Source of the DNA: Spirochaetaceae bacterium
Lineage (GTDB): Bacteria; Spirochaetota; Spirochaetia; SZUA-6; DRHE01
Assembly: GCA_020353535.1 (NCBI GenBank)
Contig: CP070696.1
Location: 4,714,465-4,778,464, forward strand
Length of the DNA stretch: 64,000 nucleotides
Direction of reading: 5' to 3'
In this document: piece by piece, positions 48,827 through 62,842 of the stretch
How the letters are laid out: the number at the start of each line of letters is the position of its first letter
Numbering within the stretch: the first letter of the stretch is position 1
Notes under the pieces: model-generated
What the model saw: the letters and a program-made list of their open reading frames with translations, nothing else
Database searches by the model: none
Told to the model about the DNA's origin: nothing
Made by a program: the position numbers and the translations under genes

Positions 48827-49684
48827 ATGAATGGCCGGAAAAAAGGATTCTCTTCGGTATGGCAGAACGAATCTCAGATCGACGATCTGCTGCCGGTCAT
48901 CGCCGCCAGCGGATTCCACGGCATCGAGCCGACCTTTCTCCCGGGGGCCATCCCCTCCCCCGAAAAGTACAGGCGGCAAGCTGCTGCGCTGGTTCGCCGC
49001 TGTCGGGATCTGGGACTGCAAATCCCAAGCCTTCGGGGCGGTCGAGGTTTCTGGGACACCATTCCCTCCCCGGACAGCCGGGAGAGAGCCGAGGCCATCG
49101 AACATGGCAAGAGGGCCCTCGAATGTCTGGCCCTGCTCGGCGGGAAAACACTGCTCGTGGTACCGGGACGTATGCGAAGCGACACGCCCTACGAGGAGCA
49201 CTGGAAACGGGTGGTGGATTTTGCCCGTCAAGCCGGAGAGATCGCCGCCGGATATGGAATCACCATCGGCCTGGAAAACGTTGAGGCCCGCTTCCCTCTG
49301 TCCGTCCGAGACTGGCGGGATCTGCTCGTTGAAATCGATTCCCCCCGTGTTCGTTTCTACTTCGACGTGGGCAATGTTTTCTGGCTTGGATTGGGCTACC
49401 CGGAGCAGTGGCTCGTCTCCCTGAAAAGTTGGATCTGTGCCCTTCACTTCAAAGATGCCATGTTTGGAAAAGAGCTCCGCAATCTCCTGGCCGGGGACAT
49501 CGACTGGAGAGCGGTGAATCGAGCGCTTGGTCAGATCAATTACCAAGGCTGGATCTGTGTCGAGCCGAACTGGTACCAGTACGCGCCGCAGCGGCTGCCG
49601 GCTCGCCTGTCTGCGGATCTGGATGCCATCCTGGCCCTGGAATACGATTCGGAAAAAACAACCAGGAATGAGGACAAGCAATGA
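48827..49684 (+). CDS. Sugar-phosphate isomerase/epimerase (AP-endonuclease-2 fold)
   Basis: A 285-residue TIM barrel of the IolE/IolI/xylose-isomerase-like group. Metal-site strands: IGLENVEARF (Glu), FYFDVGNVFWLG (Asp/Asn), ALHFKDAM (His-x-Lys-Asp) and ICVEPNW (Glu). It probably isomerises or epimerises a ketose or a sugar-acid derivative. ATG 48827 is chosen, just after GCAGG with GGGGAGG further upstream. It overlaps the next gene in ATGA. Confidence 0.83.
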   Translation: MNGRKKGFSSVWQNESQIDDLLPVIAASGFHGIEPTFLPGAIPSPEKYRRQAAALVRRCRDLGLQIPSLRGGRGFWDTIPSPDSRERAEAIEHGKRALECLALLGGKTLLVVPGRMRSDTPYEEHWKRVVDFARQAGEIAAGYGITIGLENVEARFPLSVRDWRDLLVEIDSPRVRFYFDVGNVFWLGLGYPEQWLVSLKSWICALHFKDAMFGKELRNLLAGDIDWRAVNRALGQINYQGWICVEPNWYQYAPQRLPARLSADLDAILALEYDSEKTTRNEDKQ

Positions 49685-51042
49685 ATGGGATTCAACAAGA
49701 CAACAAGCTCGGTGTGCTGTTTCTGGGTAGAACCAGACCCGGATTCGATCCGGAGTGGGGAAAAGAGGTGAAACGGGGAATCCGCAGTTTTCTCGAGGAT
49801 TCAGATTATCCGTACTTTATACCCAGCGAGAACATCCCCAATGACGAGGAGCTGCGCCGGGCGATTTACAGCTGCCGCGCCGAAGGGGTGCAGACTCTGA
49901 TCGTCACCCAGCCTACGGTCAGCGACGGGCGCCTGGCGCCGATCCTGGCTCAACTCTGGGATCAACCCTTCGTCTTGTGGGCCACGCCGGAGAAGCAGAG
50001 CGGGGCGATGATCAGCAGCAACTCCCTGGTGGGTACACACATCTTTGCCTCCACCTTGCGTCAACTCCATCACCGATTTGAATTCGTCTACGGAGGACCC
50101 GAGTCCAAGGAAACCAGGGAAGACCTGGAAACGGCTGTCGGCGTCATCGCCGCGGTGACCGGGCTCAAACAGGCTAAGATCGGCCTCATCGGCAGCCACG
50201 CTCCGGGATTCATCAATCTGGCAGCGGACCCCGCCCTGATCAGCGCCACCTTCGGAGCCCAGCTCTACCATCAGAGCATCCCCGAGTTCCTGCAGCGCTT
50301 CGAGGCCGTGGCGGAGGAGGAGGTCAGCGGCGACACCGCCGAGTTCGCCGAATTGGGAATCCCCCTGAGGGAGGTGAGGGCGGAAGACCTTGCCGTGTCC
50401 TCCCGATACTACCTGGCCTTCAAACAGCTCATGAACGGGGAAAACCTGGCCGCCCTGGCGGTGCGCTGCTGGCCCGAGCTTCCCAATGCGACAGGCCAGT
50501 GGCCCTACGTGGCCCTGTCCCGACTGCTATCCGAGGGAAAGGCGGTGGTTCAGGAGGGGGACGTGGACGGGGCAATCGGGATGCTGGCCGCCCGGAGGAT
50601 GGGCATGGGCTCCGTGTATCTGTCCGACTGGCTGGAACACGATCGTTCCACCATCGCGATCTGGCACACCGGATCGATTCCCTTCGATTTCTGCGAGCCC
50701 ATCGGCAGCGAGCTGGGACCCCACATTGCCAAGCAGTTCAATATCAAAAATCCGGCGGTCATCGAAGCCACCCTGAAGTCGGATCTTCCCGTCACCGTGT
50801 TCCGTGTCTGGCGCTGTGACAACCTCTACCACTGCACCGCTCTTGAGGGTGTGACCGTACGGCCAAAACGGCATCTGCTCGGCAACAACGGCCTGGCCCG
50901 ATTCGAGGAGGTGAATATCGAGGAGTGGTTCGACAGGATGATCCACCAGGGCCTGCCCCATCACCCGCTGGTCGCCCGAGGATCCCACAAGCACAGGCTG
51001 CGGAGGTTCTGCCGGCAAATCGGAATTCAGTGGATCGATTGA
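49681..51042 (+). CDS. FucI/AraA-fold sugar isomerase-like protein
   Basis: A 453-residue protein related to L-fucose/L-arabinose isomerases: an N-terminal alpha/beta domain (VLFLGRTRPGFDPEW, VQTLIVTQPTVSDGRLAPILAQL), IGLIGSHAPGFINLAADP, and a C-terminal half with IAIWHTGSIPFDFC. The catalytic Glu/Asp/His of true isomerases cannot be confirmed by eye. It is the second gene of a four-gene plus-strand operon. The likely role is to rearrange a sugar or polyol made by the first enzyme (inference). Confidence 0.78.
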   Translation: MNGIQQDNKLGVLFLGRTRPGFDPEWGKEVKRGIRSFLEDSDYPYFIPSENIPNDEELRRAIYSCRAEGVQTLIVTQPTVSDGRLAPILAQLWDQPFVLWATPEKQSGAMISSNSLVGTHIFASTLRQLHHRFEFVYGGPESKETREDLETAVGVIAAVTGLKQAKIGLIGSHAPGFINLAADPALISATFGAQLYHQSIPEFLQRFEAVAEEEVSGDTAEFAELGIPLREVRAEDLAVSSRYYLAFKQLMNGENLAALAVRCWPELPNATGQWPYVALSRLLSEGKAVVQEGDVDGAIGMLAARRMGMGSVYLSDWLEHDRSTIAIWHTGSIPFDFCEPIGSELGPHIAKQFNIKNPAVIEATLKSDLPVTVFRVWRCDNLYHCTALEGVTVRPKRHLLGNNGLARFEEVNIEEWFDRMIHQGLPHHPLVARGSHKHRLRRFCRQIGIQWID

Positions 51043-53097: not shown

Positions 53098-55800
53098 TCA
53101 GCTCTGCAGGCCGGCAAGCAGCACGCTGCTGCCGCTGATCGGTCTGCAGCGTAGAATCGATACGGCTCTTTTCTCGGGCTGGTAGTACCGTGCCTTCAAA
53201 GCGCCGGCAACCTTCGCTACCGCATCTTCGTGAACCAGCAGCATCATGCAGCCACCCAGACCCGCCCCGGCCAGCTGAGCGCCCAGCACACCATCAACGG
53301 ATAGGGCAACGTCCACCATCGTGTCGATCTCTGGAATGCTGCAGTGGTAGGCTCCGGGCTGCCACTGCAGTTGAGCGGCCAGCACCCGTCCCGGGTCCCC
53401 GCTTTCCAGATCATTGATCAGGCCCAGCAGATAGCTGTTGTCTGTGGGCGCGGCATAGGCAACCGCTTTCCCGTCAGGGGTATGGCGAACGACCCGATCT
53501 CCGTCGTGGGAAACGTTCATCAGCCGACCGATCTCCTCGAGATTGTTGTCTTTCAGGACATCGGCGAAATAGCGGCTGCGCGCGCATTCGGCCAGCCCGT
53601 ACAGTACCACTCCCCGGATGGGATACACCCCGTCTTCCGGCGGCCTGTGACTGTCGAACAGGGGTTCAAGCTGAGCTGTGGGAACCAGTTCCCTCAGCTC
53701 ATCCCGGGTCGTCTTCTCCGGAAGATGAAGAAGGATCTTGTAGATCCAACCGAGAGGAACATCGAGATTCTGGGTGTTCACATCCCGCAGGTGCTGAATC
53801 CAGGGGGCGTAGCGGGGAAAGAACTTTTTGATCAGGAGAGTACCGATCCGGTAGCAGGCCACCCGATGGTTGAATTGATCCTTGGCGTTGGTGGTTTTTT
53901 GCGCCTTGAGGCCCGAGTCGCACACCAGCAGGGAGTAGTTCTTGGGAAAGGGCAAAATGTCCTCAACCGCAAATTCGAAAAAGGTGACCTTTACCACTTT
54001 GCCCCTCTGTCCGTATTTGATGGCCGCATGGTCGGCGCTCCCGCCCCGGGTTCCTACGAACCATTCCCCCTGGCCGCAGAGATCCACGAACTGGGAGGGA
54101 AAGGTATCCAGCCGGTTCACCGCCACCATGGCTTCAGCCGTGGCCACCACCAGGGCCGAGGAGGAGCTCAAGCCCGCGGCGATGGGAATATTGCCGTCCA
54201 CCACCATGTCCACTCCGCAGAGTCTGCGGTCGACAAATTTCTTCTGCAGGCGCAGCGCCGCCGCCTTGACGTACTGGGACCAATCCCCTCCGGCGCTCAA
54301 GACCAGGTGAGACACCTCTTCGCTGTTGATCAGAGAGATCCAGTCGTCCCAGGGCAACTCCGATACCAGCTCGCCGATGGAAAAATCTCTGTCGGGGAAA
54401 CGCTCTGTGTCCAGATTGTACAGACATATCCTGTCGTCCTTGCGGGGGCGGACCACCGCGAGCGTCTCATAACCGATGGTCATCAGGTTGCAATGCCCCC
54501 CCTGGTGATCCACATGGCGACCCATCAGGTTGACCCGCCCCGGCGAGCGCACCAGCAGCACCGCTTCGTCTCCACCCAGCACCGTAGCGGCGTGTTCGAT
54601 AAGACGGCTGTATGTCCGGATCCGTTCCTCCAGGAGCTCCTCGTCCCGACCGTACAACCGTATCAACTCTTCACGCAGCTGCGAGGCGCCGCCCTTGCCT
54701 GCCCGTGCGTCCCTGAAGGCGGCGCTCCACTGCGAAAGCCTGCGCAGGTGATCCCCCTCCGGGAGAGCGGGAACCATTCCCTGTTGCTTTCTGGCTTGAA
54801 CGTGCGCTTCAATTTCGAGCAGCTCGGCGGGATCGTTGAAAGCCATCACGGCATTTTCATCCTCGATCGTCAGTGCCCTGACCACGAAAGCCCCTCCGTC
54901 GGCGTTTCGAGACTGGCTCAGGATGGTGATCATGTCGGGCAGATACTCCTCCCCTTGTGCGTTGTTTCGTTCCAGTCGCTCCAATACGAAGGCCAGAGCC
55001 CCCGTCTTTACCAGATACACGGAGCTGTTGTACAGCGGGGTGTTTTCCACCTCTTCGGGGCTCAAGCTGAAAGGCCGGCCCTCTCGATCCACAAAGTCGA
55101 AACGGGTCATCCCTTCGGGAATCAAGGCGAGCACCTCTTCCCGTTGGGGTGTTCTCTTCTGGGTGACCAACACCTCCCATAGGTCAGCGAACGCCTTTGC
55201 GGCTTTCTCATCGCTGAAGCTCTGCAGTATACGCTGGATCATCCGTTCCCGGGAAAGCTTCTTGCCTCTCTCCACTTGCGCGCGAAACTCCCCGTAGATC
55301 TGCCGCTGCCGGATATCCGCAGCCTCGACGTCGGCCAGAACAGATCCGTCCGGATTAAGCAGAATCCGGCCGAGACTGGAGGGTCGCCGCCGGGGCAGGG
55401 CCAGGAAGGCCAGATCGCAGCTCTGGCTATAGAACAGATCGAAGAAACGCTCCAAAACCTGAGGCTCGATCAGACGATCCCCGGCCACGATCAGAACCTC
55501 CGCCTTATCGCTCAAGGCCGCAAGAACCCTGGCGCCCATGCGGGCGGCGTGGGCCGTACCCAGCTGCTCGGCCTGATAGGCGTAGATCACGTTCTCCGCC
55601 TCCACCGTGTCCATGACCTGCTCGGCCATGGCCCCGACCACGATGATGTGAAAAGCGATGCCGCAGCGGTTGTAGATCTCCAGGCTGCGGTTGATGGCCG
55701 CCGTCCCGTCAATCGGGAAACACACCTTGTGGAGATTGGCGGACTGCATGCGGGTCCCCTTGCCCGCAGCCAAAATTATAGAATACTTCGGTGCCAGCAC
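53098..55800 (-). CDS. Nucleotidyltransferase-galactokinase-like bifunctional fusion
   Basis: 900 residues with two domains. Residues 1-~340 are a sugar-1-phosphate nucleotidyltransferase, GlmU-like: ILAAGKGTRMQS near residue 10-20, AYQAEQLGTAHAARMG, and VAGDRLIEPQVL. Residues ~410-900 are a GHMP kinase: PGRVNLMGRHVDHQGG at 420-435, the phosphate loop PIAAGLSSSSALVVA at 539-553, GTRGGSADHAAI at 583-594, and AGAGLGGCMMLLV near 865. The galactokinase position GExH is GRH (Glu to Arg), so the sugar is probably not plain galactose. The kinase would make sugar-1-P and the other domain an NDP-sugar. FKGP/Fkp fusions also join these activities but with different domain types. GTG start overlaps the previous stop by 1 nt. 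Confidence 0.88.
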   Translation of the reverse strand: MLAPKYSIILAAGKGTRMQSANLHKVCFPIDGTAAINRSLEIYNRCGIAFHIIVVGAMAEQVMDTVEAENVIYAYQAEQLGTAHAARMGARVLAALSDKAEVLIVAGDRLIEPQVLERFFDLFYSQSCDLAFLALPRRRPSSLGRILLNPDGSVLADVEAADIRQRQIYGEFRAQVERGKKLSRERMIQRILQSFSDEKAAKAFADLWEVLVTQKRTPQREEVLALIPEGMTRFDFVDREGRPFSLSPEEVENTPLYNSSVYLVKTGALAFVLERLERNNAQGEEYLPDMITILSQSRNADGGAFVVRALTIEDENAVMAFNDPAELLEIEAHVQARKQQGMVPALPEGDHLRRLSQWSAAFRDARAGKGGASQLREELIRLYGRDEELLEERIRTYSRLIEHAATVLGGDEAVLLVRSPGRVNLMGRHVDHQGGHCNLMTIGYETLAVVRPRKDDRICLYNLDTERFPDRDFSIGELVSELPWDDWISLINSEEVSHLVLSAGGDWSQYVKAAALRLQKKFVDRRLCGVDMVVDGNIPIAAGLSSSSALVVATAEAMVAVNRLDTFPSQFVDLCGQGEWFVGTRGGSADHAAIKYGQRGKVVKVTFFEFAVEDILPFPKNYSLLVCDSGLKAQKTTNAKDQFNHRVACYRIGTLLIKKFFPRYAPWIQHLRDVNTQNLDVPLGWIYKILLHLPEKTTRDELRELVPTAQLEPLFDSHRPPEDGVYPIRGVVLYGLAECARSRYFADVLKDNNLEEIGRLMNVSHDGDRVVRHTPDGKAVAYAAPTDNSYLLGLINDLESGDPGRVLAAQLQWQPGAYHCSIPEIDTMVDVALSVDGVLGAQLAGAGLGGCMMLLVHEDAVAKVAGALKARYYQPEKRAVSILRCRPISGSSVLLAGLQS

Positions 55801-56765
55801 TAGGGTTTTTCCTCCTCTGGTTTTGCTACCGGGGAATAGAGCTTCAGGATCTTCAGGGCGTTCTCCCCGGTGATTTTAGCGAACGTCCGTTGACCGATCC
55901 GTTTCTCTTCCAGCAGGCTCCGCAAATAGTCCAGATGGGGCATCCTGCCATCCGGGCCGCCGAAGCACACATCCGTGCCGAATAAAATTTTGTCCTGGAA
56001 CTCCGTGAGGAAGTCAGTGGCAAAAGCCTTGTCACGGCTGATGGCGTTGAAGCCGCTGTTGGCGGATATATCGGCATACAGATTCGCATAGCTTCGCAGC
56101 AGACGGCTCAGGGTTCCCGCCTTGCGAATCGGTCCGGTGGGATAGACGAACTTCTTTTCAGGCGTAATATCCCCTTCGATCTCCGCCCAAAAGCCCGGCG
56201 CATGTCCGATCACGGTGGTATGCGGAAGCGCCTGCAGCAGCCTCTCCAGGCGGGGAAGACCGACCTCATCGTACAATCCGTACACCCCCCGGCCGGGGCC
56301 GGTACAGGGAAACAGTACGGGAAGATCGAATTCACCGCACTGGCGGAACAGACTGATCACCCGCGGATCATCAACGGCGATATTTGCGGTGATCTCTCCT
56401 ATGCCTACACAGCCGAGCTCCAGGAAATGCGTCAGGATCCAGGAGAAATCGGCCTCCGGCGGATTTTCGACCTGATGGGGTTCCAGATTGCCGAGGCATC
56501 CCATGCGGGGATCTAGATTGCCGAATGGGATGACCCGATCCGCATACTCCCGAGCCGCTTTCAGCTGGCTGAGGATATCCACCTGTGGCGAAAACAAGAA
56601 GGGGGCCTGCAAACTTTCCGGAGATACTCCCGAAGGGAGCACGACCGCCTTATCGATTTCCTCTTCATCCAGGCGTTCGATCAATCCCTCCCAGGTAACT
56701 GGCAGACGATCCATCCGTTCGGGGGTGCGGTGATCCCCGACGTGGGTGTGAAAATCAATGATCAT
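55800..56765 (-). CDS. Amidohydrolase-2 family metal-dependent hydrolase
   Basis: A 321-residue TIM-barrel hydrolase. Metal ligands are IIDFHTHVGDHR at the N-terminus, TVIGHAPGFW, and KILFGTDVCFGG near the C-terminus. Family members hydrolyse or decarboxylate ring compounds, lactones and amides; a sugar lactonase-like role would fit this locus (inference). Its start overlaps the PIG-L gene stop (ATGA). Confidence 0.87.
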   Translation of the reverse strand: MIIDFHTHVGDHRTPERMDRLPVTWEGLIERLDEEEIDKAVVLPSGVSPESLQAPFLFSPQVDILSQLKAAREYADRVIPFGNLDPRMGCLGNLEPHQVENPPEADFSWILTHFLELGCVGIGEITANIAVDDPRVISLFRQCGEFDLPVLFPCTGPGRGVYGLYDEVGLPRLERLLQALPHTTVIGHAPGFWAEIEGDITPEKKFVYPTGPIRKAGTLSRLLRSYANLYADISANSGFNAISRDKAFATDFLTEFQDKILFGTDVCFGGPDGRMPHLDYLRSLLEEKRIGQRTFAKITGENALKILKLYSPVAKPEEEKP

Positions 56766-57643
56766 CTTTTCCCTTTCCCCTGTCCAAAAAAAGGAAACAA
56801 CTGCGGGATATCATCCTTTTTAAATCCGGCTCCGTACTCACAACCCTCGAAGGCTTCGGCGTAGCGCACAGCCCGTCCCTTCTGTTCGCCGTACAGCTCG
56901 ATCAGCATCTGCCGATACTCGTTGGCGACCTCTTCAAAATACGGCAGGCGCCAGGCTGCCAACCACTCCTTGCGCTGCTCTGAATCCACAGGCACCTGAT
57001 CGGCGATTCCCTGGTTGAAGGGAAGCCACTCGTAGAACTGTGATTGGTGGCAGTGCATCATCTCCACCTTCTGCTCGATCACCTCATCAATGCCAACGAC
57101 CACATCGGGCTGAAATGGAATGGGTTTGCGGAACCAGTCATGCATGTAGCAGATCTTGGGTGACCGGGGCAGGATGTCCGTCAGTGCCACCATGTTGGGC
57201 ACAGTCACGATATAGGAAGCGTCCTGGACAAGTTGGGAGGTGTAACGATGATCGGGATGATAGTCGTTCGGCCGGTGGGTGATGATCAGATCCGGATTGG
57301 ACTCCCGGATGATGCGGATGATCAACTTGCGATTTGCTACTGTGGGCTCCAGCTCTCCGGTATGCAGATCCAGAACTTCGTACGCCGCCAGTCCCGCTAC
57401 CCGGGCAGCCGCCTGAGCCTCCCCGTAGCGCCTGCGAGCCAGTTCGATACCCCCGATTTCATGATGCCCCGTGTCGCCGTTGGTGGTGCTCAAGAATTTG
57501 ACCTCGTGTCCCTGAGCGATGTACTTCAAGGCCAAGCCGCCGCAGTGCACGTCCGCATCGTCGGGATGAGCTCCGATGACCAGGATCTTCAATTTGCCTT
57601 CTGCCACGTTAGTTCTCTCATCAACTATTATCGAGGAAGTCAT
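56762..57643 (-). CDS. PIG-L/LmbE-family deacetylase
   Basis: A 293-residue zinc enzyme. The first motif is VIGAHPDDADVHCGG (His-Pro-Asp-Asp), the second HRPNDYHPDHRYTS with the metal His. Known members remove acetyl groups from GlcNAc-type sugars in mycothiol/bacillithiol or antibiotic synthesis. In this locus it probably deacetylates an N-acetylated sugar (inference). ATG 57643 (MTSSIIVDERT) is preferred; one at 57673 would overlap the cupin gene. Confidence 0.88.
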   Translation of the reverse strand: MTSSIIVDERTNVAEGKLKILVIGAHPDDADVHCGGLALKYIAQGHEVKFLSTTNGDTGHHEIGGIELARRRYGEAQAAARVAGLAAYEVLDLHTGELEPTVANRKLIIRIIRESNPDLIITHRPNDYHPDHRYTSQLVQDASYIVTVPNMVALTDILPRSPKICYMHDWFRKPIPFQPDVVVGIDEVIEQKVEMMHCHQSQFYEWLPFNQGIADQVPVDSEQRKEWLAAWRLPYFEEVANEYRQMLIELYGEQKGRAVRYAEAFEGCEYGAGFKKDDIPQLFPFFGQGKGKR

Positions 57644-57647
57644 TGGA

Positions 57648-58061
57648 TTACCTGCTCTCCCCTCGAGCAACACAAGCTATTATCTCGAGTTTTTCCTCTG
57701 CCGACAGGGGGTGGTTTTCCGAGTTTTCCGCACCGGTATCCCTATTTTCCACGATCAGCAGACGGCTTCCCGGCTGCAACACAGCGGCGTGCCACTGCCC
57801 CTGCCGAACCACATAGATCTTTCCGGAAACGAACTTGACGGCTTCAAATCGTCCCGGCTGATCCTGGGTCCCGGCGATCACCATAACCGCCTCGCCCTGC
57901 AGGAGGAGAAAGGCCTCCTCCGTTTCCAAATGTCGCCCCAGGGTGGCAATAGAATCCAGCGCATTCACCCCGGGATCATAACTCAGCTGTGCTATCCTCC
58001 AGGACCCGTGGTCTTTCAGTGGTTGGAATCCCTGGCCTTGGATATCGATCTCTTCAAGCAT
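57648..58061 (-). CDS. Cupin-fold protein
   Basis: A 137-residue single-domain cupin. The metal-binding pattern is GRHLETEEAFLLLQGEAVMV (His, Glu) and GQWHAAVLQPGSRLL (His). Such small cupins include sugar epimerases, ureidoglycolate lyases and sensors. The start ATG 58061 overlaps the AGE gene end by 8 nt. It lies between an epimerase and a deacetylase, which suggests sugar chemistry. Confidence 0.8.
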   Translation of the reverse strand: MLEEIDIQGQGFQPLKDHGSWRIAQLSYDPGVNALDSIATLGRHLETEEAFLLLQGEAVMVIAGTQDQPGRFEAVKFVSGKIYVVRQGQWHAAVLQPGSRLLIVENRDTGAENSENHPLSAEEKLEIIACVARGESR

Positions 58062-59367
58062 CGGTATGCTGAATCCGTTCAAGGGACTTGATCAGGTGCA
58101 TGAACGCCCGGGTGATGTGGTATGGATCCTTGACCGGAAGGGCCACTACCTTGTCTTCCGGTCTGCCCTGCCGGTCCCTGATCTGGATCCACTCGCCGAT
58201 GCCTTTGTCTGGGTTGGGAAAGGTCTTGAACACGTAATCATGGAACTTCCAGTAGGTGTCCATGAACCAGGAGTCCCGGGTGTGCTCGTAGGCCAAAATC
58301 AAGGCATATAGAGCCTCGGAATGCACCCACCAGAGCTTGTTGCTCCAGTTCTCGGTAAGCTCCAGGATCATGTGATCGTCCTTGTTCTGCTCGGCGATGA
58401 TTCCCTTGGGCTTGCCGCCGTCGATGTGCAGGAATTGGGGCAGGCCGCCATATTCTTCGTCCCAACCCTTGGTGGTCATCCAGCGTACGATCTCGGTAGC
58501 GGTATGTAGTGCTTTTCGATCCTGAACTTTCCCGGCGAGGTGCATAAGGAACCAGGCGTCTTCCAAGGAGTGTCCCGGGTTGAAGTAGCTGCCCAGCATC
58601 TCCTTGTAGGCGGGTTGGTTGTCTTCTTTTACCGCCTCGAGCAAGATCTTGCGATCCTTTTTGACAAACACGGTCAAGGTCTCCTGCATCGAATCCCGGG
58701 CGATACGCTCTAGACGGTCTGCCGATGGATCATTGAAGAAGCGGGCGATGTCCGCCAGTTCCTGAGCCGTCTCCAGCATGATCATCGACTTGCCATGGGA
58801 TTTGAATCCCACCGGTTTGTCGTGGGGAAAGGACTTGAAATTACCGCTGGACAGTCTCTCCCAGACCGAGTCGAAAAGTTTTAGAGTAAAATCAAAATAT
58901 TCCCGGCTGTTGGCAGCCCGGGAGAACTCCCCCATTCCATAGATCAGGAATTCATCCGCCGAGATCCCCAGGTCGTTTCCCTCCCCCGGAGCGGCTTCCT
59001 TGATCGATCCATCCCGGTTGGTATGAATCGGATTTCCCGATTCATCAACCACCCAGGCACAATTCCCGTTGGGCAGCAGGGCCTGCTCTTTAAGGAAGCG
59101 GGCACCCTTTTCCGCCGCCTCTGCAATCTGCCCCAAATTTTTTTCGCTCGTATAATCCCGGAAGGCGTAGATCAGACGGGAGAGCATCCACAGGAAGCGG
59201 CCCTGAGACCAGATATACTTGTGCTTCGATTTTAGGACATCTCCGGTGTTGCTGAAGCAGGTAAAGAATCCACCATGTTCGTGATCTATGCCGAAGCGCA
59301 TCCAGAAGGAAATCAAGGTGTTGAACAGATGATCGATATAGAAATCCCGTAGTTCTTTTAGGTTCAC
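58054..59367 (-). CDS. AGE-family sugar 2-epimerase
   Basis: A 437-residue (alpha/alpha)6-barrel protein of the N-acylglucosamine 2-epimerase/cellobiose 2-epimerase family. Recognisable parts are FWMRFGIDHEHGGFFTCFS, KYIWSQGRFLWMLSRL, NPGHSLEDAWFLMHLAG (catalytic His region), and WWVHSEALYALILAYEHT. It is GTG-started with GGAGG about 10 nt upstream. It probably interconverts gluco- and manno-configured sugars from the imported glycan (inference). Confidence 0.9.
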   Translation of the reverse strand: MNLKELRDFYIDHLFNTLISFWMRFGIDHEHGGFFTCFSNTGDVLKSKHKYIWSQGRFLWMLSRLIYAFRDYTSEKNLGQIAEAAEKGARFLKEQALLPNGNCAWVVDESGNPIHTNRDGSIKEAAPGEGNDLGISADEFLIYGMGEFSRAANSREYFDFTLKLFDSVWERLSSGNFKSFPHDKPVGFKSHGKSMIMLETAQELADIARFFNDPSADRLERIARDSMQETLTVFVKKDRKILLEAVKEDNQPAYKEMLGSYFNPGHSLEDAWFLMHLAGKVQDRKALHTATEIVRWMTTKGWDEEYGGLPQFLHIDGGKPKGIIAEQNKDDHMILELTENWSNKLWWVHSEALYALILAYEHTRDSWFMDTYWKFHDYVFKTFPNPDKGIGEWIQIRDRQGRPEDKVVALPVKDPYHITRAFMHLIKSLERIQHTDA

Positions 59368-59389: not shown

Positions 59390-60283
59390 TCAGCCCTTGA
59401 TGGAGCCGATCATGATGCCGCGGGTGAAGTACTTCTGGATAAAGGGGTAGATGGCCATAATGGGGATCATGGCCACGATGGTGACAGCCGCCTGAATCCC
59501 CTCCGGACCGGCCTCAGTCATCATGGCTGATTGTTCGAAGGGCAAGGTATCCTCCAGCATATGCTGGGTCAGGATATCCCGCAGCACAACCTGGATGGTA
59601 TACTTGGAGGGATGGGTGATAAAAAAAACTGCCGGCATAAAGATGTTCCAGTTCCAGATGATGTAGAACAATCCGATGGCGGCAATCACCGGTTTGGACA
59701 GAGGGATGAAGATGCGAAACAAGATGGTCAGCTCACCGGCACCGTCGATAAAGGCGGATTCTTCCAAACTGTCGGGGATGGTCTGAAAATAGTTCTTGAT
59801 GATGATCATGTTGAAAGTGATTATGGCGTAAGGAATTATCAGGGCCCACAGGGAGTTGATCAGCCCCAATTTCTTGACCAGGATATAGAAGGGGATGATC
59901 CCCACCGGGAACAGCATGGTGAAAACCGCGATCAGGGTAAAGACCGAACGCAGCGGCAGCCGTTTGCGCGAGAGCGGATAGGCGATCATAAAGCTCATAA
60001 ACAAATTGATCACTGTTCCTACAGTGGCCACAAAGAAACTGTTTTTAAAGCCGGAGATGATGCCCCGGGCCTGGAAGATTTTTACGTACGTATTGATGGT
60101 CGTTTTCACCGGCCACAACCATACCTGTCCCTGCTGAATGTAGAACTCCGGAGAAAAAGAACGGGCCAGCACATTGATAAAGGGGAAGATGCAGATGACG
60201 CCAAAGACAAAGAGAAAGAAGTATACAAATATGACAAATATCTTTTCAGAAAAAAGATAGTTTTTGAACCTGAGCCTGGCCAT
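59390..60283 (-). CDS. Sugar ABC transporter permease (LplC/MalG-like)
   Basis: A 297-residue permease with six helices. EAA loop: LEESAFIDGAGELTILFRIFIPLSKPVIAAIGL. The C-terminal SIKG ending is typical of the LplC/YtcP subgroup. No ATPase gene is nearby, so a shared MsmK-type ATPase probably drives it, as in other Lpl-type systems (inference). Confidence 0.93.
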   Translation of the reverse strand: MARLRFKNYLFSEKIFVIFVYFFLFVFGVICIFPFINVLARSFSPEFYIQQGQVWLWPVKTTINTYVKIFQARGIISGFKNSFFVATVGTVINLFMSFMIAYPLSRKRLPLRSVFTLIAVFTMLFPVGIIPFYILVKKLGLINSLWALIIPYAIITFNMIIIKNYFQTIPDSLEESAFIDGAGELTILFRIFIPLSKPVIAAIGLFYIIWNWNIFMPAVFFITHPSKYTIQVVLRDILTQHMLEDTLPFEQSAMMTEAGPEGIQAAVTIVAMIPIMAIYPFIQKYFTRGIMIGSIKG

Positions 60284-60294
60284 ATCTCCACCCC

Positions 60295-61218
60295 CTACCA
60301 GAGTCCGTAATCGGTCAGCTTTTTCAAAACGCTGTTCGACACCAGGACCAGAACGAAACCAATGGCCGACTTGAAAAGGCCCAGGGCGGTTGTATAGGCG
60401 AACCGCCCCCCCAAGATACCCTGGCGATAGTTGAAGGTCTCGATAACATCCCCCACGTCGTAGACCATAGGGCTGTACAGGATATAGACTTGCTCGAAGC
60501 CCACGGTGAGCAGTTGGCCCAATCTAAGGATGAACAAAATCGTAATCACCGAGGCAATCCCCGGTAAGGTAACGTGCCAGATCCGTTGAAACAGATTGGC
60601 CCCATCACAGATTGCAGCTTCGAAGATCTCCTGATCGACTCCGGCCAGGGCGGCCATGTAGATCACGGTGAAATAACCGCTGTTCTTGGTGATCTCCGAG
60701 GCCACCAGAATGGGACGAAACCAGGCTTCATTAGCCAGAAAATATATACCTTCTCCCCCCAAACTTTTCAGCAACACATTGATCATACCTACCGAGGGCG
60801 AGAGGAGGGTGTACATGATGCTGGCGTAGATAACCCAAGAGATGAAGAAGGGAACGAAGGTGATGGTTTGAATGGTCTTACGGTAGGCTTTGCTGAACAC
60901 TTCGTTGAGAAAGATTGCCAGTAGAATGGGAAAGGGGAAACCGATGGTAATCTTCAAAGCACTGATCACCAGGGTATTGCGCAGCACCCGCAGAAACATA
61001 GGATCCACAAACATGGCGCGGAAATTATCCAATCCGACCCACGGGCTGCCCCAGAATCCCCTGGCGTAGGAGTAATCCTTGAAGGCGATCAGGTTCCAGT
61101 AGTAGGGCACATAGCGGAAGATAGCGTACCAGACCATGACGGCCAGAGCCATGAAAAAGAGAAATTTGTTCTTTATAAATTTTTTTCTAAAGGAATCCAG
61201 ACGGGACACTATGAACAT
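60295..61218 (-). CDS. Sugar ABC transporter permease (LplB/YteP-like)
   Basis: A 307-residue permease with six helices and the usual N-terminal extension KFLFF. EAA loop: FEAAICDGANLFQRIWHVTLPGIASV. It ends with the LTDYGLW typical of the subgroup. A GGGGAGC ribosome site follows the terminator-like hairpin, and it is 11 nt from the next permease. Confidence 0.93.
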   Translation of the reverse strand: MFIVSRLDSFRKKFIKNKFLFFMALAVMVWYAIFRYVPYYWNLIAFKDYSYARGFWGSPWVGLDNFRAMFVDPMFLRVLRNTLVISALKITIGFPFPILLAIFLNEVFSKAYRKTIQTITFVPFFISWVIYASIMYTLLSPSVGMINVLLKSLGGEGIYFLANEAWFRPILVASEITKNSGYFTVIYMAALAGVDQEIFEAAICDGANLFQRIWHVTLPGIASVITILFILRLGQLLTVGFEQVYILYSPMVYDVGDVIETFNYRQGILGGRFAYTTALGLFKSAIGFVLVLVSNSVLKKLTDYGLW

Positions 61219-61294: not shown

Positions 61295-62842
61295 TTACTT
61301 GATCGGAATCAGCTCGTTGACCTGTTTCTCGATCTCCGGTCCGCCGTTGGCCTTGTAAAATGCGAGCCACTCGTTCCATACCTGATTTGCATCCTTACCG
61401 GAAACGATCTTGGTGGCGATCTCACGGAAGGTGGACTGCAGATTGACGAAGTATTTAGCATCCGCCGGAACGGGTACGGCCTTGGAAGAGGTGACCGCGT
61501 ATCTGTCCGCCATCTTGTTGCCTTCGATCTGGGCGGGTCCCAGGGTATTCAGAAACTGCTGGTAGACGTGTTTAGCCAATGCCTGGTCAGGCCAGGTCTT
61601 GCACTGATTTGGATTCTCTATGGCAAAGCCCGTCCAAATTCTGGAATACTCCCACTTTTTACGAATATCATCATAGTCGGGTGTGTTCATCGCTTCTTCG
61701 AAGGAGTAGAACACCGGCCACCCCTGGGCGTTGATCTCTTTGGGTGGAAAGGCGTAATCGCCCACACCGCCCGAATCCAGGAAGAACTCCTGGGTGTAGG
61801 TGTAGTTGAAGACCTCCACCGCCTTTTCCAGGTTCTTGTTGGCCTTGGAAAAGAATTTACCCCAGGGTTGACCTTCGTTGGAAGATCCTTGACCGTAGGG
61901 ACCCTTTGGGGGTGCGATGGGCCACATCTTGGCGTTGGCGATGCCGGCCTGTACTAAAGCACCGTTCATTGCGGTCAGCCGTTGCGGCTGATGATACCAC
62001 ATGCCGATCTTGTTCTGAAGATAAGCGTTCCACCACTGATTCCAGTCGAATGTCAGGGATTCCGGGTGGATGACCCCTTCGGCGTACATGTCGGCCAGGT
62101 TCATCAACGCTTCTTTCATCTGTGGCTGCACCCAGTCGTTAGTATGCTTGCCGTTACGAATCCGCCACATGCCGATCTGGTGGTGGTTGGGCGCCACGCC
62201 GTAAGCGTGGAAGAAACCGTCGATGAAGTTGATGTTTTGTCTGTGGGCCGTGCCGTAAGTATCGTCTTTGCCGTTGCCGTCAGGATCCCCAAAGGTAAAG
62301 GACCGTGCCACTTCCCGGAACTCTTCCAGGGTTACCGGCACGTCCAGACCCAGATTTTCCAGCCAGTCCATGCGGATATTCTGGGCAAAGTACTTCAGGC
62401 TGTAGCTAGCAGGTATACAGTACTGTTTACCGCCGTAATTTCCAAAGGCAAGATGGCCCTCCCGGGCGTTCCCAGCGATGTCTTTGCCGACCTTGGCAAG
62501 GACGTCGTCCAGAGGAGCGATAAGGTCTCCCTCCACCAGTTGGGGCAGATAGCTCTGGGCGTTTATCATGAAAACATCAGGGAGATCCCCGGCAGCCATC
62601 ATCACCGGAAACTTCTCCTTGTAGGCGGAGTAAAGCATCGGTTCGATTTGGAATTTCACTTCCGGAAATTTCTCCCGCAGGGTATTCATGAAGGCTCCGT
62701 TCTCAACATCGCCGGCGGCTTCGGGCAGCCACATCCAACGCAACGTGACCGTCTCCATCTCCTGACCGCCTGTGGCGGACAGCATCATGGTTGCCAGGAA
62801 GAACAGGCACAAAGATACGAGAAGAATCTTGGATTTCTTCAT
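61295..62842 (-). CDS. Sugar ABC transporter substrate-binding protein (LplA-like, extended)
   Basis: A 515-residue extracellular solute-binding protein family 1 member of the large Lpl/YtcQ type. The signal is LVSLCLFFLATMMLSATGG; no lipobox Cys is seen, so it may be periplasmic. Segments: LRWMWLPEAAGDVENGAFMNTLREKFPEVKFQIEP, and FNYTYTQEFFLDSGGVGDYAFPPKE. This subgroup imports oligo- or aminosugar-containing glycans. AAGGAGG precedes the ATG, and a good promoter lies 34 nt upstream. It is the first gene of the long minus-strand operon. Confidence 0.92.
   Translation of the reverse strand: MKKSKILLVSLCLFFLATMMLSATGGQEMETVTLRWMWLPEAAGDVENGAFMNTLREKFPEVKFQIEPMLYSAYKEKFPVMMAAGDLPDVFMINAQSYLPQLVEGDLIAPLDDVLAKVGKDIAGNAREGHLAFGNYGGKQYCIPASYSLKYFAQNIRMDWLENLGLDVPVTLEEFREVARSFTFGDPDGNGKDDTYGTAHRQNINFIDGFFHAYGVAPNHHQIGMWRIRNGKHTNDWVQPQMKEALMNLADMYAEGVIHPESLTFDWNQWWNAYLQNKIGMWYHQPQRLTAMNGALVQAGIANAKMWPIAPPKGPYGQGSSNEGQPWGKFFSKANKNLEKAVEVFNYTYTQEFFLDSGGVGDYAFPPKEINAQGWPVFYSFEEAMNTPDYDDIRKKWEYSRIWTGFAIENPNQCKTWPDQALAKHVYQQFLNTLGPAQIEGNKMADRYAVTSSKAVPVPADAKYFVNLQSTFREIATKIVSGKDANQVWNEWLAFYKANGGPEIEKQVNELIPIK

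Follow-up and report, generated by a model that had tools for sequence, protein, structure and literature searches.

The window analysed here is a stretch of 64,000 nucleotides from a Spirochaetaceae bacterium, and its minus strand carries, at 53098..55800, a gene for a fused nucleotidyltransferase and GHMP sugar kinase, with a GTG start at 55800 and the end of the stop codon at 53098. The product has 900 residues and the reading frame is intact, with no internal stops; the extent given in the earlier note was thus exact. The Pfam matches above the curated cut-offs are NTP_transf_3/NTP_transferase (residues 7-155), GalKase_gal_bdg (411-452), GHMP_kinases_N (510-597) and GHMP_kinases_C (810-873), and together with the NCBIfam matches they bear out the initial reading of a GlmU-like nucleotidyltransferase placed before a galactokinase-like GHMP domain in a single chain. 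E-values range from 1e-8 to 1e-14 for Pfam and from 1e-34 to 1e-44 for the best NCBIfam matches, and homologues over the full length of the protein (E=0) are found in several phyla; therefore, these matches are not due to chance. In NCBIfam the protein matches GlmU and galactokinase without reaching any of the equivalog cut-offs, so that no current family model names the fusion protein. An AlphaFold2 model built from 19 homologues has a mean pLDDT of 85.8.

The GlmU-like nucleotidyltransferase domain (residues ~5-338; 54787..55788, minus strand) shows LAAGKGTRM, K25, Q76, GT81-82, D108, NAQGEEYL and N322. The solved structures nearest to this half are all GlmU UDP-GlcNAc pyrophosphorylases, and the equivalents of the GlmU catalytic residues (GxGTRM, K25, D105 and N227) are present in it. 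The GxGTRM, GTAHA, NAQGEYY-like and Asn metal-site motifs are common to the uridylyltransferase domain of GlmU; however, the fusion lacks the C-terminal acetyltransferase, has GDR in place of GDT/GDV-P, and contains a helical insert of ~90 residues (168-255; 55036..55299, minus strand), located from alignments and helical in the AlphaFold2 model, that has no counterpart in GlmU. The GlmU model, which includes the C-terminal acetyltransferase, gave 120 bits against a cut-off of 366.85, the match being limited to the nucleotidyltransferase part.

The second half is a galactokinase-like GHMP kinase domain (residues 411-900; 53101..54570, minus strand), recognised by both sequence and fold matches. 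The top Foldseek match in the PDB is the human GalNAc kinase GALK2 with GalNAc-1-phosphate (2a2c, E 2.3e-22), which ranks above the galactokinases, and phmmer agrees in placing this enzyme nearest to the kinase half; it is hence the closest solved structure in sequence as well as in fold. The catalytic loop, GT-x-GG-x-x-D, is as in GALK2 and in the GALK2-like paralogue of the same genome, and unlike that of galactokinase. Asp590, the equivalent of the catalytic base (54031..54033, minus strand, in GTRGGSADH), is invariant among 68 non-redundant loci (less than 70% identical), as are His429, Gly586 and Gly587. No loss of key residues, one point on which the original proposal could have failed, was found in either domain, and this retention of both catalytic signatures argues for a two-step enzyme; the window protein probably carries out both steps.

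GALK2 is unfused and keeps the motif GEHIDY, whereas the sugar-binding motif of the fusion kinase, PGRVNLMGRHVDHQGGH (54493..54543, minus strand), contains SPGRVNLMGRHVDHQGG (GRHVDHQGG), with Arg428 at the position of the galactokinase Glu. The galactose-binding motif GExHxDY is absent from the kinase half, where GRHVDH is found instead, and the galactokinase model TIGR00131 (GalK) scored 151.8 bits, below its cut-off of 226.65. The replacement of the GExH Glu by Arg, noticed previously, is real: Arg occurs in 57 of the 68 non-redundant relatives and Glu in none, so neither a sequencing error nor a one-off change accounts for it. In Fkp from Bacteroides fragilis, Trp599 of the segment aligned to this motif stacks on C4-C5-C6 of the sugar and Asp601 binds the C3/C4 hydroxyl groups (PMC11982464). 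Judging from these contacts, the lost Glu sits in a segment that lines C4 to C6. A literature search on the roles of galactokinase Glu43 and Asp46 gave nothing usable. The Fkp motif, which serves a 6-methyl sugar, has Gly at the Glu position, and the Glu is presumed to act at C6, partly on the basis of the Fkp structure; from this, Arg428 hints at a C6 group different from a simple CH2OH, for example a carboxylate. The lost Glu also argues against plain galactose as the substrate. The expectation that the sugar is unusual is thus no more than suggestive; neutral HexNAc, HexNAc-uronate and plain uronates are all possible substrates. An Arg within the segment that lines C4-C6 (where Fkp has Trp599 and Asp601) could belong to the same type of two-step enzyme acting on glucuronate or galacturonate, like the zebrafish glucuronokinase/pyrophosphorylase, with the Arg pairing with the C6 carboxylate. 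Nevertheless, a uronate substrate appears unlikely, given that the kinase is nearest to a GalNAc kinase and the nucleotidyltransferase to GlmU.

The two-step plan of a kinase and a pyrophosphorylase is already known, and the domain pair described here is a separate family. The pairs AmgK/MurU and NahK plus GlmU follow the same logic, i.e., an anomeric kinase and then a uridylyltransferase, but they are unfused, and neither AmgK nor NahK is known to be a GHMP kinase. In B. fragilis Fkp the N-terminal half is the pyrophosphorylase and the C-terminal half the kinase (PMC11982464), and in zebrafish DrGKUP (glucuronokinase and putative UDP-GlcA pyrophosphorylase) the nucleotidyltransferase is likewise N-terminal and the kinase C-terminal (PMC3938481). 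Since both have the order seen in the window, the description of the fusion as reversed has to be abandoned. The fusion resembles Fkp/FKGP (L-fucokinase/GDP-fucose pyrophosphorylase) in domain order, in length (~900-950 residues) and in the conversion of a free sugar into a nucleotide sugar (PMC11982464); however, its nucleotidyltransferase is of the GlmU kind, in which a beta-helix part was not seen here, and its kinase is of the galactokinase type. A Pfam scan gave no match of the fusion to the fucose pyrophosphorylase domain PF07959, in agreement with the earlier statement that Fkp and FKGP use other subfamilies, and it is unlikely that fucose and GTP are its sugar and nucleotide. DrGKUP also joins a GHMP kinase to a bacterial-type nucleotidyltransferase in the same order, but it is eukaryotic, its kinase is of a different subfamily, and pyrophosphorylase activity was not seen in the standard assay (PMC3938481).

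The fusion gene is the last of eight packed minus-strand genes, with gaps of at most 76 bases and several overlaps, that are probably co-transcribed; it does lie in an uptake operon, as had been proposed, one that encodes an ABC importer. The operon begins with a solute-binding protein (61295..62842), followed by two ABC sugar transporter permeases (60295..61218 and 59390..60283), an N-acylglucosamine 2-epimerase (AGE) family protein (58054..59367) closest to N-acylglucosamine 2-epimerases, a 137-residue gene (57648..58061), a PIG-L family deacetylase-like protein (56762..57643) and an amidohydrolase (Amidohydro_2, 55800..56765) that shares 1 base with the fusion gene. The 137-residue gene, which the earlier note does not mention, occupies the space from the epimerase to PIG-L and has a weak similarity to ureidoglycolate lyase. 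The closest solved relatives of the PIG-L protein are diacetylchitobiose deacetylase and BshB1-type enzymes, and no solved relative was found for the amidohydrolase. Those of the solute-binding protein are AlgQ1/AlgQ2, which bind alginate, and then Smon0123, which binds glycosaminoglycan disaccharides (chondroitin; 5GUB etc.) (PMC5430744). The theme of the operon would thus be acidic and amino-sugar oligosaccharides, though each of these similarities is remote; amino sugars are indicated by the likeness of two neighbours to AGE and PIG-L enzymes, and the likeness of the solute-binding protein to alginate and glycosaminoglycan-disaccharide binders speaks for uronates. The order PIG-L, amidohydrolase, fusion is retained in the sister genome L008. 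At the operon, no Rfam RNA was found nearby and no promoter signal rose above chance.

A catabolic-looking cluster with an aldolase, an isomerase-like gene and a TRAP transporter adjoins the operon. The protein of the gene at 49681-51042 has no Pfam hit and is distantly sulfoquinovose-isomerase-like (162 bits, cut-off 700); the gene lies in a convergent cluster together with aldolase, Gfo/Idh/MocA and xylose-isomerase-like genes. Just outside the window (L049:8638-15453), Ldh_2 dehydrogenases, a second Amidohydro_2, a URO-D-like gene and a DegT aminotransferase stand in a row. In another Spirochaete (L009:2943-12709) the fusion gene is the last of a microcompartment operon with shell proteins, an aldehyde dehydrogenase, RpiB and DeoC. 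A Leloir-like catabolic route, in which epimerisation would take place on a short-lived UDP-sugar carrier before the sugar is degraded, could explain why the window gene lies with uptake, epimerase, deacetylase-like and amidohydrolase genes beside the aldolase/isomerase-like/TRAP cluster, and also why the L009 member closes an operon with RpiB and DeoC. We consider it improbable, since other members of the family reside in polysaccharide clusters and a hexose-1-phosphate uridylyltransferase-type gene was not seen among the genes of the operon. The contrast drawn in the earlier note between salvage into glycans and simple breakdown consequently holds in part: the wider family is found next to UDP-sugar epimerases and within polysaccharide clusters, as would suit salvage into glycans, but the operon has homologues of amino-sugar-processing enzymes, which leave room for breakdown in the window organism.

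Fusions of a GlmU-like nucleotidyltransferase and a galactokinase-like kinase form a real, uncharacterised family. A search of GTDB genomes found 18 full-length relatives, and members occur in Lentisphaeria, in WS1/Zipacnadia-type genomes and rarely in Spirochaetes. Carriers amount to 49 of 198 genomes in Lentisphaeria, 50 of 201 among the relatives of the WS1 genome (WS1/Armatimonadota-type, kinase-only forms included), a single one of 296 sampled Spirochaetota genomes (that of the window) and 3 of the 7 genomes in the window organism's own family. The Spirochaete members make up a single clade beside a Lentisphaeria-rich group, a placement that horizontal transfer or patchy loss could account for. 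Among the 68 non-redundant loci, 47 are fused, which answers the earlier call for the same domain order in other genomes, and 21 are kinase-only. At L129, the nucleotidyltransferase and the kinase are separate, adjacent genes with a slight overlap, and an epimerase gene comes next; by the Rosetta-stone argument, this arrangement also favours a two-step enzyme. Five rumen Lentisphaeria (L020, L021, L025, L112 and L113) have an intact kinase and a degenerate nucleotidyltransferase, with GLSRRM or GLSTRM, GHR for GDR, and loss of the ~90-residue insert. Altogether, the kinase-only, split, fused and degenerate forms clearly record a gene fusion and then the decay of one half. Directly upstream of each of these five degenerate members there is a small lipoprotein-like gene, and a possible heptose link, HldD/GmhA near L020, was seen in just this one genome of the clade. 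Four kinase-only members (L131, L136, L137 and L144) have Val for Arg in the motif and a very large ORF (~2000 residues) directly downstream.

The degenerate domains of the rumen Lentisphaeria and the 21 loci without a nucleotidyltransferase imply that the kinase can act without it. One could then suppose that the protein is mainly a sugar-1-kinase, its nucleotidyltransferase having a structural or regulatory role while a separate UAP-type pyrophosphorylase makes the nucleotide sugar; a eukaryote-like UAP/UDPGP (PF01704) protein is indeed present in 13 of the 15 genomes tested. The nucleotidyltransferase catalytic residues are, nevertheless, intact in the window protein and conserved in most fused members, which makes a mainly kinase role very unlikely. 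Concerning UDP-GlcNAc, GlmU above the family cut-off is absent from 13 of the 14 carrier genomes tested (G000 and 12 others), and the genome's second GlmU-like match appears to be a GalU-like gene. The fusion was considered as a GlmU replacement for essential UDP-GlcNAc and this was rejected: with the UAP-type protein so frequent, it is unlikely to be the sole source, and it is absent from most Spirochaetes.

To survey the neighbourhoods, all genes within 6 kb of the 68 non-redundant loci were clustered with no preselection. The top cluster is an NAD-dependent UDP-sugar epimerase/decarboxylase, present at 11 loci; the remaining clusters reach at most 5 loci and come from narrow groups of relatives, and most of the 68 loci have no conserved neighbour. 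Six of these epimerases, all with TviC as their best-scoring model, are adjacent and on the same strand, versus about 0.05 expected, assuming two such genes per 3000. TviC is the best-scoring model for eight of these proteins (L013, L023, L087, L091, L129, L161, L162 and L163), at 239-316 bits against a cut-off of 760, so that they are TviC-related and are not called TviC; the YxxxK motif is kept in all of the epimerases. TviC is the UDP-GlcNAcA C4-epimerase, and WbpP is the nearest solved relative of the L087 epimerase, the one tested. The fusion proteins of L013 and L087 are only 37% identical, whereas the nearby epimerases are 89% identical, and both loci have WecG/TagA/CpsF-family and GT4-type transferases. 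The link is positional only: at the genome level, no co-occurrence of the fusion and a TviC-like epimerase was seen in Lentisphaeria (33/49 versus 90/149, p=0.40), and a TviC-like epimerase was not found in the window organism's own family.

Several members of the family lie in polysaccharide clusters, and those of Victivallales are accompanied by UDP-glucuronate-decarboxylase-like, second-kinase, second-nucleotidyltransferase, CpsB and Wza-like genes; the contexts with epimerases, transferases, CpsB and Wza-like genes are those of glycan synthesis. The Victivallales clusters bear on the uronate alternative as well, since the fusion occurs in them with the decarboxylase-like gene and a second kinase whose motif is GAHVDHQ; on the other hand, the commonest epimerases of the family are nearest to epimerases of N-acetylated sugars.

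From these data we infer, with a probability of roughly 55%, that the fusion is a bifunctional sugar-1-kinase/UDP-sugar pyrophosphorylase that salvages a sugar, most likely of the N-acetylhexosamine type, into glycans. The C-terminal GHMP kinase would phosphorylate the anomeric hydroxyl of the free sugar with ATP, with Asp590 as the base and with the phosphates bound by Arg422 together with the GLSSSS loop, and the N-terminal domain would then convert the sugar-1-phosphate and UTP into UDP-sugar and PPi. An N-acetylated hexose is indicated by the GALK2-like kinase with its GT-x-GG-x-x-D loop, the GlmU-like nucleotidyltransferase and the WbpP/TviC-like partners; for this class of sugar taken by itself the odds are about even. 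The substrate would be GlcNAc- or GalNAc-like, or modified at C6, e.g., a uronic acid, with no need for the galactokinase Glu on the C6 side. In the window organism it would be imported and processed by the ABC importer and the AGE-like epimerase, deacetylase-like and amidohydrolase neighbours, and in the relatives the UDP-sugar would be handed to a WbpP/TviC-like C4-epimerase and glycosyltransferases. It is conceivable, albeit doubtful, that the kinase accepts specifically a C6-acidic amino sugar, such as an N-acetylhexosaminuronic acid, whose C6 carboxylate would pair with Arg428; if free HexNAc-uronate were converted to UDP-HexNAc-uronate in this way, one protein would bypass the usual UDP-HexNAc dehydrogenase route.

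With no NCBIfam match above the cut-off to name it, this kinase-pyrophosphorylase family is fairly common in Lentisphaeria and in WS1/Armatimonadota-type genomes. If its sugar were identified, this would put a name to a salvage route of bacteria that are poorly cultured, and might provide a one-protein tool for nucleotide sugars, as Fkp is for GDP-fucose.
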